A stretch of DNA of 64,000 bases. It comes from an uncultured bacterium (GTDB taxonomy: Bacteria; Krumholzibacteriota; Krumholzibacteriia; LZORAL124-64-63). Position 1 is the stretch's first letter; every line of letters begins with the position of its first letter. The translations under genes and the position numbers were made by a program. This document shows, one piece after another, positions 19,024-26,965 of the stretch. The stretch covers positions 79,625-143,624 of the forward strand of contig CAIWHK010000028.1 of the NCBI GenBank assembly GCA_903912525.1, written 5' to 3'. Below the pieces are notes generated by a model that was given only the letters and a program-made list of their open reading frames with translations, had not been told where the DNA came from and did no database searches.

Positions 19024-20943
19024 ATGTCGGACCTGAATCTGACCCTTCCGGACGGACAGACCCTGACTCTCGAAGCCGGCCGCCCCTGGGCGGACGCCGT
19101 GCGCCAGATCGGCGAGGGCCTGCTGCGCAACGCGCTGGCCGTCACGGTCGACGGCGTCAACCACTCCCTGGCCGAGCCGGCCCGGGCGGGCGGACAGATG
19201 ACGGTCATCACGCGCTCGGGCAAGGGTGGAGCCGAGACGTTGCGGCACTCGACCGCGCACCTCCTGGCCTGGGCCGTGCAGGACCTCTTCCCGGGCACGA
19301 AGTTCGCGTTCGGGCCGGACATCGAGAACGGGTTCTACTACGACTTCGACCGCCCCGAGGCGTTCTCCGATGAGGACCTCGCGCGGATCGAAGTGCGCAT
19401 GCGCGAACTGGCCGGCGGCAAGGTCGCCATCGAGCGCGCCGAGGTCAGCTCGGCCGAGGCCCGCGAGCTGTTCAAGGACCAGCCCTACAAGCTGGAGCAG
19501 ATCGACGAGCTGGGGGACCGGCAGTTGTCGATCTACCGCATGGGCGGCTTCACCGACCTCTGCGAAGGCCCCCATGTGCCCGACACCACCGAACTGAAGG
19601 CGTTCAAGCTGCTGAGCGTGGCCGGCGCCTACTGGCGCGGCGACGCCAAGCGCGCCATGCTGCAGCGCATCTACGGCACCGCCTTCTTCAAGAAGAAGGA
19701 ACTCGACGACCATCTCGTGATGCTGGAAGAGGCGAAGAAGCGCGACCATCGCAAGCTGGGCCGCGAGCTCGACCTGTTCGGCATCATGGAAGAGGCCGGC
19801 CCCGGGTTGTCGTTCTGGTTCCCGCGCGGTGACTTGTTGCGCGAGCAGATCATCGACTACTGGAAGGCCGTGCACCGGCGGTGCGGCTACCAGACCGTGA
19901 CGACGCCGCACATCTCGCAGGCCGGCCTGTGGGAGACTTCCGGGCACATGGAGTTCTACAAGGAAAACATGTACGTGTTCGAGCAGGACGAACGTCCGTA
20001 CGTCGTCAAGCCGATGAACTGCCCGGGCCACATCCTGATGTACAAGCGCAAGACGCGCGGCTACCGCAACCTGCCGGTGCGCCTGGCCGAGCTGGGCACC
20101 GTCTACCGCGCCGAGCTGAAGGGCGCGCTGCACGGCCTGATGCGCGTGCGCGGCTTCACGCAGGACGACGGCCACATTTTCTGCACGCCCGACCAGCTCG
20201 AGGACGAGGTGAGCAACACCATCGACCTCGTGAAGGAGATCCTCGGCACGTTCGGCTTCAATGACTTCAAGGTCGAACTGTCGGTCCGCGACCCGCTGAA
20301 CAAGGAAAAGTACGCGGGCACGGACGAGGAGTGGGACGCCGCCGAGAGCTCGCTGGTCAAGGCGCTGGAGAAGCACAGCCTGGCCTACACGCGCGAGGAG
20401 GGCGAGGCTGTTTTCTACGGCCCGAAGATCGACGTCAAGCTGATCGACGCCATCGGCCGCCGCTGGCAGGCCAGCACGATCCAGTTCGACTTCAACCTGC
20501 CCCGCCGGTTCGACGTCCGGTTCACGGACCACGAGGGCCAGGAGCAGTACGTCTACATGGTGCACCGGGCGATCCTGGGGTCGCTCGAGCGCTTCATCGG
20601 CATCCTGACCGAGCACTTTGCCGGGGACTTCCCGGTGTGGCTGGCGCCGGAGCAGGTGCGCATCCTGTCGGTCAGTCGCGACCAGCACGAATACGCCGAG
20701 GCGACGGCCAACCTGCTGCGCGAAAAGGGCTTGAGGGCCGAGGCGGACGTTCGCGAAGAGAAGATCGGCTTCAAGATCCGCGAGGCCGAGGTCATGCGGG
20801 TGCCCTGGATGCTGATCGTCGGCGGGCGCGAGGCCGAAACCGGTCAGGTGTCGGTCCGGGTTCGCCACCAGGGGGACCTCGGGTCCCGGCCGGTGGCCGA
20901 CGTGGCCGACGATCTCCTTGACTTGGTGCGGAAACGGCAGTAG
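19024..20943 (+). CDS. thrS: Threonyl-tRNA synthetase
   Basis: TGS domain, HSTAHLLAWAVQDLFP, class II motifs (MNCPGHILMYK, RVRGFTQDDGHIFC). Confidence 0.98.
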   Translation: MSDLNLTLPDGQTLTLEAGRPWADAVRQIGEGLLRNALAVTVDGVNHSLAEPARAGGQMTVITRSGKGGAETLRHSTAHLLAWAVQDLFPGTKFAFGPDIENGFYYDFDRPEAFSDEDLARIEVRMRELAGGKVAIERAEVSSAEARELFKDQPYKLEQIDELGDRQLSIYRMGGFTDLCEGPHVPDTTELKAFKLLSVAGAYWRGDAKRAMLQRIYGTAFFKKKELDDHLVMLEEAKKRDHRKLGRELDLFGIMEEAGPGLSFWFPRGDLLREQIIDYWKAVHRRCGYQTVTTPHISQAGLWETSGHMEFYKENMYVFEQDERPYVVKPMNCPGHILMYKRKTRGYRNLPVRLAELGTVYRAELKGALHGLMRVRGFTQDDGHIFCTPDQLEDEVSNTIDLVKEILGTFGFNDFKVELSVRDPLNKEKYAGTDEEWDAAESSLVKALEKHSLAYTREEGEAVFYGPKIDVKLIDAIGRRWQASTIQFDFNLPRRFDVRFTDHEGQEQYVYMVHRAILGSLERFIGILTEHFAGDFPVWLAPEQVRILSVSRDQHEYAEATANLLREKGLRAEADVREEKIGFKIREAEVMRVPWMLIVGGREAETGQVSVRVRHQGDLGSRPVADVADDLLDLVRKRQ

Positions 20944-20959
20944 TTTTTGCGATTGCAGA

Positions 20960-21165
20960 ACCGTCGCGGACCGGGTGTCCCTGGCGGTACGGCCAAGCAG
21001 AGGTCCGCCCTCTCACCGTAGCCGTCCTGTGAGCTGACCACTGGACCCGCTTGTTCGGAGTCCAGTCAGGCGCCAAGCGCGCCGAAGGCCGGCCGGGATT
21101 GGAGCGGTTGCCAAACCCGGGGCCCATTCCAGGGGCCGGTGGCGGACCATTGTGTCCGCCTTTTT
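20960..21165 (+). promoter_or_regulatory. Putative attenuator leader upstream of infC
   Basis: Hairpin CTGGACCCG...CGGAGTCCAG (21041-21065); terminator GGCGGAC-CATTGT-GTCCGCC-TTTTT (21141-21165); GGTCCGCC at 21002-21009 is the exact complement of GGCGGACC at 21141-21148. Confidence 0.65.
21141..21165 (+). terminator. Intrinsic terminator (probable attenuator) upstream of infC
   Basis: 7-bp perfect GC stem, 6-nt loop, TTTTT tail. Confidence 0.85.
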
Positions 21166-21234
21166 GCGTCTGGTCGTCAGGACGGTCATGGGCCGGGACG
21201 GACGCGACGCGGTGGCATCCAGGAGGTCAGGCTT

Positions 21235-21756
<522 letters not shown>

Positions 21757-21843: not shown

Positions 21844-22041
21844 ATGGGCAACAAGATGAAGACCAACCGTTCGGCGGCGAAGCGACTGCGGCTTACCGGC
21901 AACGGGCGGGTCAAGCGGGCGAAGGCGTTCCAGGGTCACCTCTTCACGGCGAAGAGCCCCAAGCGCCTGCGCAACCTCCGCAAGGGGACCATGGTGGCCT
22001 CGGTTGACGAGGCGCGCGCCCGCCGGATGCTGGGCAAGTAA
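21844..22041 (+). CDS. rpmI: 50S ribosomal protein L35
   Basis: MKTNRSAAKRLRLTGNGRVKRAKAFQGHL. Confidence 0.96.
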   Translation: MGNKMKTNRSAAKRLRLTGNGRVKRAKAFQGHLFTAKSPKRLRNLRKGTMVASVDEARARRMLGK

Positions 22042-22101: not shown

Positions 22102-22455
22102 ATGCCAAGAGCAACAAATAATCCGGCTGCGAAACAGCGGCGGAAGAAGTATCTCAAGCGGGCGAAGGGATTCGTCAGCGGCCGGCGCCGGCAGGCGATT
22201 ACGGCCCGCGAAGCCGTCGATCGCGCCCTGGTGTACGCGTATCGCGACCGCCGGAACAAGAAGCGCGATTTCCGCCGCCTGTGGATCACGCGCATCAATG
22301 CGGCCGCGCGCATCAACGGCATGAGCTACAGTCATTTCATCAACGGCCTGAAGAAGGCTGAGATCGAAATCGACCGCAAGGTGCTCGCCGACCTGGCCGT
22401 CTACGACGCCGGCGCTTTCGCCAAGCTGGCCGAGGCTGCCAAGAGCGCGCTCTGA
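22102..22455 (+). CDS. rplT: 50S ribosomal protein L20
   Basis: [58 protein letters not shown]. Confidence 0.98.
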
Positions 22456-26422: not shown

Positions 26423-26755
26423 ATGCAGGAACCAGAGAGCGTGACGGTCAACATCTTCGGCACGGAGTACACCCTCAGGGGCGCCGCCGACGCCGATTAT
26501 GTGCAGGAAGTGGCGGCATTCGTCGACCGGCGCATGAACGAGGTCGCGAAGGGCGCTTCCGTGGCGTCGACCGCGCGGGTGGCGATCCTGGCTGCGGTGA
26601 ACATTGCCGACGAACTCTTCCGTGAACAGCGCAAGCGGATCGAAGACCAGGCAACGCTCGAAGATAGATCCGAACAGCTGACCCGCATGCTGGTGCGGGG
26701 CATGGCTGGAGACCGACCTTCAGAAACCGGTGGTGATGCTCTGCCCGGCGCGTGA
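26423..26755 (+). CDS. zapA: Cell division protein ZapA-like
   Basis: VTVNIFGTEYTLRGAADADYVQEVAAFVDRRMNEVAKGASVASTARVAILAAVNIADELF. Confidence 0.88.
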   Translation: MQEPESVTVNIFGTEYTLRGAADADYVQEVAAFVDRRMNEVAKGASVASTARVAILAAVNIADELFREQRKRIEDQATLEDRSEQLTRMLVRGMAGDRPSETGGDALPGA

Positions 26756-26756
26756 T

Positions 26757-26898
26757 GGGTCGTACAAGTGAGCCAACACTTCCGCAATGGGACTCCGGAG
26801 TTCCCTGCCGAAGGACACGCCCCTCGGGGATGACCTGAAGCAGGGACAGGGGACCCACCTGGAGCAACACGGTTCAGTTGCTCCGACTCACACGACCG
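26757..26898 (+). ncRNA. ssrS: 6S RNA-like (SsrS) regulatory RNA
   Basis: Immediately after zapA; closing stem GGTCGT..GTGAG / CTCAC..ACGACC; inner rod TCCCTGC/GCAGGGA and TGGGACTCC/GGGGACCCA; central-bubble hairpin GGAGCAAC-ACGGTTCA-GTTGCTCC. Confidence 0.75.
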
Positions 26899-26965
26899 GG
26901 CGGAGCAGCTACCGGCCCCTCCGATTTTCGCCCCTCGTTTCCCATCACATAGGGAAGGGGAGGCC

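Follow-up and report, generated by a model that had tools for sequence, protein, structure and literature searches.

The leader between thrS and infC in the window (the whole 64,000-nt stretch of DNA that was analysed) is very probably an autogenous attenuator of the L20 type, a reading in which the ligand (L20), the termination event, the direction of regulation and the point where transcription begins are inferred from sequence and from analogy with studied leaders. Pfam matches give the gene order thrS, infC, rpmI, rplT, followed by a pheS-like gene recognized from its translation, and the presumed ligand L20 is encoded within the same operon (Table 1). The distance from the thrS stop codon to the inferred infC start was 291 nt, close to the approximately 290 nt given in a preliminary description of this DNA, which had proposed attenuation with a matched antiterminator before infC-rpmI-rplT. 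Phylum-wide conservation, covariation in the leader scaffold and an arm-swap test argue for that proposal. Two points absent from the preliminary description are that the antiterminator strand belongs to P1 of the proposed L20 site and that a putative promoter lies at the thrS stop codon.

Table 1. Features of the thrS-infC leader and the genes behind it, in window positions
Feature	Position	Strand	Basis or remark
Inferred promoter of the infC operon, -35 box TTGACT, within the thrS coding end	20918..20923	+	Phylum-wide TTGAC
-10 box TAGTTT, which begins with the thrS stop codon	20941..20946	+	Phylum-wide alignment of thrS ends
Leader 5' end (inferred start ~20953) and 5' hairpin P0	20953..20990	+	Fold; start from the -10 box only
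Proposed L20 site, first half: AAGC, P1 hairpin (20999-21003 with 21009-21013), CACC	20995..21017	+	72/72 loci
Antiterminator strand GGTCCGCC	21002..21009	+	Overlaps both P1 arms and the P1 loop
P2 helix, ACCG 21015-21018 with CGGU 21105-21108	21015..21108	+	Pairs conserved; carries genus-specific insert
Intrinsic terminator GGCGGAC-CATTGT-GTCCGCC-TTTTT	21141..21165	+	Antiterminator partner at 21141-21148
Shine-Dalgarno AGGAGGT, with the inferred ATC start of infC (21235-21237)	21221..21237	+	Sequence; phylum comparison
infC (IF3), first gene of the operon	21235..21756	+	Pfam IF3_N, IF3_C
rpmI (L35)	21844..22041	+	Pfam Ribosomal_L35p
rplT (L20), presumed regulator	22102..22455	+	Pfam Ribosomal_L20, 1e-42

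Leader layout and pairing with the terminator arm

The canonical intrinsic terminator of the preliminary description is present and ranked at the top of nine terminator-like sites in 8 kb (shuffles: 5.1). The exact complementarity reported between GGTCCGCC (21002-21009) and GGCGGACC (21141-21148) also held. Several further 7-8-nt complements are present in the same 360 nt of GC-rich DNA, and a single 8-nt complement there is weak evidence alone; it rises above chance because it is conserved, as judged by the arm re-pairing tests described below. The single-sequence fold z-score of the window leader was only -1.5 to -1.7, which is uninformative by itself. An intervening hairpin previously placed at 21041-21065 is real (21040-21066) and is a genus-specific insert within P2. 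It can be ruled out as a core part of the leader because it varies or is missing within the same genus (its length differs in locus L002 and it is missing in L004).

For comparison, sequence upstream of infC was gathered across Krumholzibacteriota, the uncultured phylum to which the window belongs, from genomes that fell into eight families (f1-f8). The same layout, AAGN, hairpin P1, CUCACC, helix P2, terminator and then infC, occurred in all 72 loci with an intact upstream region. No leader was found in L158, where the match is an internal part of infC only, or in L184, where the gap is 43 nt. The first four pairs of P1 were standard in 72/72 loci, with AU, GC, UA and GU among the pair types, and the first three pairs of P2 were unbroken in all loci scored (72/72, 72/72 and 68/68), with GC, UA, CG and UG at the fourth. 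P1 and P2 covary: in two alignments the covariation was above all 500 shuffles and every slid version (0.217 and 0.178, with shuffled means of 0.151 and 0.115, respectively), with the relatedness among loci left in place by the shuffle control. A comparable terminator hairpin was found in 72/72 loci, two of which (L151 and L163) have no good U-tract. The P0 hairpin characterizes f1, the family of the window (mean z -1.97), and is absent from f3.

P1 co-evolves with the terminator arm. In 38 genus representatives, none of 20,000 re-pairings between genera reached the strength with which P1 paired with its native terminator 5' arm (0/20,000), and 11 of 40,320 re-pairings at the family level were as good as the native combination. 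The energy of this pairing was -13.1 kcal/mol for native arms vs -11.1 kcal/mol for re-paired ones, and as the swap-test control the upstream 25 nt had no such affinity for the terminator arm. Substitutions on both sides that still pair, the compensatory changes named in the preliminary description as a check, occurred in f1-g6, f2, f4 and f5 (L013, L018, L022, L023 and L024). The altered pairs include CGGUCC with GGACCG in L013, GAACUGCUUC with GGAGCAGUUC in L018, AGGCAGUC with GGCUGCUU in L023 and AGGUGUCACC with GGUGGCACCU in L024. These 72 natural variants, with changed yet matched switching strands, make a good data set on the rewiring of RNA switches.

Because the antiterminator strand overlaps both P1 arms, its pairing with 21141-21148 opens P1 and blocks the terminator; the antiterminator fold excludes both the proposed L20 site and the terminator. 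For the window leader, the antiterminator fold was 7 kcal/mol better than the terminator fold (-100.5 vs -93.5), as equilibrium rather than co-transcriptional values, and this modelled preference is consistent with the need for a ligand to terminate. Other members of the window's family were nearer balance, and in some the terminator fold was preferred. Pairing of P1 with the terminator was weak in f3 and f7 (approximately -8 to -9 kcal/mol vs -17 in f1), so the antiterminator probably differs there. In these families the terminator arm finds its match instead in the CUCACC joint or the 3' strand of P2, with GGGUUUCA as a candidate alternative partner of the 5' arm. We hypothesize that the antiterminator of f3 and f7 has been rewired and uses the P2 strand or the CUCACC joint as its partner.

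Relation to known L20 leaders

In Bacillus subtilis, L20 stabilises a terminator ahead of infC-rpmI-rplT by binding at the H1/H2 junction (PMC6097659; review PMC10931766). Such L20 leaders have been reported from Firmicutes and Thermotogales (PMC3766115) or from Firmicutes only (PMC6097659), and a narrow literature search found no paper on them in Krumholzibacteriota. The preliminary description could name no matching leader. The Rfam model L20_leader (RF00558, gathering score 58.7) gave no match in the window at E<=10 and no score above the gathering score in any of 28 genomes; the layout nevertheless follows the RF00558 plan in diverged form. Across gathering and permissive thresholds, the only Rfam matches at the window leader, isrK (17 bits, E 0.36) and H19_3 (E 7), were dismissed as chance. 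Searched genome-wide, RF00558 gave mostly low-scoring chance matches elsewhere, and at a loose threshold it also matched 13 of 14 control genomes, so we counted only matches at infC. There, leaders of sister families matched collinearly (53.0 bits, E 1e-7, in L026; 40.0 in L027; 31.2 in L019; 29.2 in L021), the first of these being the best score in the phylum and below the cut-off.

We also built a covariance model, R1, from families f3, f6, f7 and f8 only, leaving out the window's family. At E<=0.25, R1 detected leaders at 34 of the 35 loci in the excluded family, 31 of them below 0.003. Its single match in the 64-kb window was at the thrS-infC leader; the match was partial and weak (10.2 bits, E 0.1), probably due to the large P2 insert in the window's genus. 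Outside the phylum, R1 found infC leaders in Hydrogenedentes (L053, E 7e-8), Eisenbacteria (L029, 5e-7) and Gemmatimonadota (L035, 3e-7; L046, 0.0075). A leader of the same plan is possibly present upstream of infC in an actinobacterial MAG (L072, 247-300; R1, E 0.0012), and most Streptomyces infC loci have a T-run approximately 105 nt ahead of the infC match.

Like RF00558, the Krumholzibacteriota leader stands before infC-rpmI-rplT, in the 5' UTR and upstream of infC in 72/72 loci, and consists of AAGN, the P1 hairpin, CUCxCC and P2, then a terminator. AAG with P1 was found in 72/72 loci and the C-G pairs of P2 in 72/72 and 68/68. It is our own reading that these correspond to the AA dimer and two consecutive G-C pairs described for L20 sites (PMC7247131). 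Judged by sequence only, a terminator would alternate with an antiterminator after this site, with the weaker U-tract of L151 and L163 and a less certain antiterminator partner in f3 and f7. The RF00558 consensus likewise has a P1 loop complementary to the terminator arm (-14 kcal/mol). Differences from RF00558 are the phylum, the inner sequence of P2, the large P2 insert in the window's genus and, possibly, the Krumholzibacteriota stop-codon promoter. Formally, by score threshold, the window falls outside RF00558; by layout and the chain of homologues it appears to be a divergent relative, and the leader is best read as a divergent L20 leader of the RF00558 type below the Rfam threshold. This kind of switch is already known; what is new, as far as we checked, is its occurrence in this phylum, its divergence, the possible rewiring and the putative promoter at the stop codon.

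Two other L20-related elements were compared. The L20-Deltaproteobacteria leader (RF03126) is a distinct proposed L20 leader with an AA dimer and two G-C pairs (PMC7247131), and it differs from the window leader in being another scaffold (59 positions). Even at permissive thresholds it matched neither the window nor any of the scanned infC leaders from Krumholzibacteriota; its matches were in Geotalea and a Desulfuromonadaceae MAG (L056 and L045), both downstream of the infC match. The Escherichia coli operator is under autogenous control by L20 with rRNA mimicry (PMC10931766). It shares autogenous L20 control with the proposed switch but differs in being translational, in using a pseudoknot and in acting on rpmI-rplT, with infC outside L20 control. 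The window's genome contains no 23S rRNA. The 23S rRNA of a relative (L186) has GUCACCGAAGCUACGG, which may resemble CUCACCGUAGCUGG of the leader. In further 23S comparisons, G021 gave a partial match, and no copy of the fixed motif turned up in L185.

An attenuator of the same layout might instead sense another ligand such as IF3, L35 or a small molecule, since infC and rpmI share the operon and the binding site was likened to a model, not to a measured complex. We consider this very unlikely because the leader shares its AAG-hairpin-CC scaffold with RF00558, in which the B. subtilis member binds L20, and IF3 already has a plausible control of its own through the infC start codon. No ATG occurs at the expected place of the infC start in the window. 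Across the 72 loci the start codon was ATC in 55, ATT in 12 and ATA in one, and four were unresolved; ATT is also the infC start codon in B. subtilis (PMC6097659), so that a near-cognate start is a further likeness between the two systems. Near-cognate starts in 68 of 72 loci suggest autoregulation by IF3 at the start codon on top of the attenuator.

For the L20 attenuator more broadly, we see the case as evenly balanced that it is a widespread device of Firmicutes, Krumholzibacteriota, Gemmatimonadota, Eisenbacteria and Hydrogenedentes, in which the sensor is fixed and the antiterminator is rewired between lineages (the P1 hairpin in most families, probably the P2 strand or CUCACC joint in f3 and f7), with the Krumholzibacteriota promoter in the thrS stop codon. 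That one sensor recurs throughout Krumholzibacteriota and in Gemmatimonadota, Eisenbacteria and Hydrogenedentes suggests that this control of ribosome assembly, missed by the Rfam model, is either old or has spread repeatedly.

Putative promoter at the thrS stop codon and proposed mechanism

Alignment of thrS ends pointed to a conserved element upstream of the leader. In 54 of 60 thrS-linked loci, TTGAC lies exactly 17 nt upstream of TA[AG]nnT, and the remaining six have TATCAT or TATCTT at the same 17-nt spacing with the stop codon moved further down. The codon overlapping the -35 box was xTT (CTT, GTT or ATT) in 60/60 loci, across Leu, Val and Ile; in the neighbourhood, CTT makes up approximately 10% of Leu codons and GTT approximately 14% of Val codons. 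This bias points to constraint at the nucleotide level. We infer a sigma-70-type promoter at 20918-20946 that is conserved phylum-wide and has the thrS stop codon in its -10 box, which would be a clear case of overlapping codes. A promoter scan missed it because the -10 box matches in only 3/6 positions. The Gemmatimonadota locus L035 likewise has TTGACG-17-TAGATT, as read from its sequence.

These observations bear on the idea that the hairpin is a plain terminator of thrS, with infC transcribed from a separate promoter after it and the complementarity incidental. The hairpin does lie downstream of thrS and has a U-tract, but it stands approximately 200 nt beyond the stop codon, preceded by a folded scaffold that is conserved, and P1 and the terminator arm co-vary. 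The scan found no promoter-like site between the terminator and infC, whereas a conserved promoter is predicted upstream of the leader. We therefore regard this idea as highly improbable. A role of the leader in translation or RNA stability, with a constitutive terminator, might be suggested by the long structured 5' UTR and the non-standard infC start codon but is extremely improbable: approximately 55 nt separate the terminator from the ribosome binding site, the terminator arm and the antiterminator strand co-vary, and the proposed L20 site is not adjacent to the Shine-Dalgarno sequence.

In the L20 attenuator, transcription would start approximately 7 nt past the promoter that has the thrS stop codon in its -10 box, giving a leader of approximately 210 nt. 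When free L20 is scarce, the P1 region GGUCCGCC would pair with the terminator 5' arm, so that the terminator is blocked and infC-rpmI-rplT are transcribed. L20 in excess would bind the AAG-P1-CACC-P2 site and keep P1 closed; this would free the terminator arm, and transcription would end at approximately 21165. That excess L20 closes P1-P2 and causes termination is proposed by analogy with B. subtilis. Further downstream, past the pheS-pheT region, a 6S RNA (RF00013, 74 bits) was found at window positions 26735-26910.
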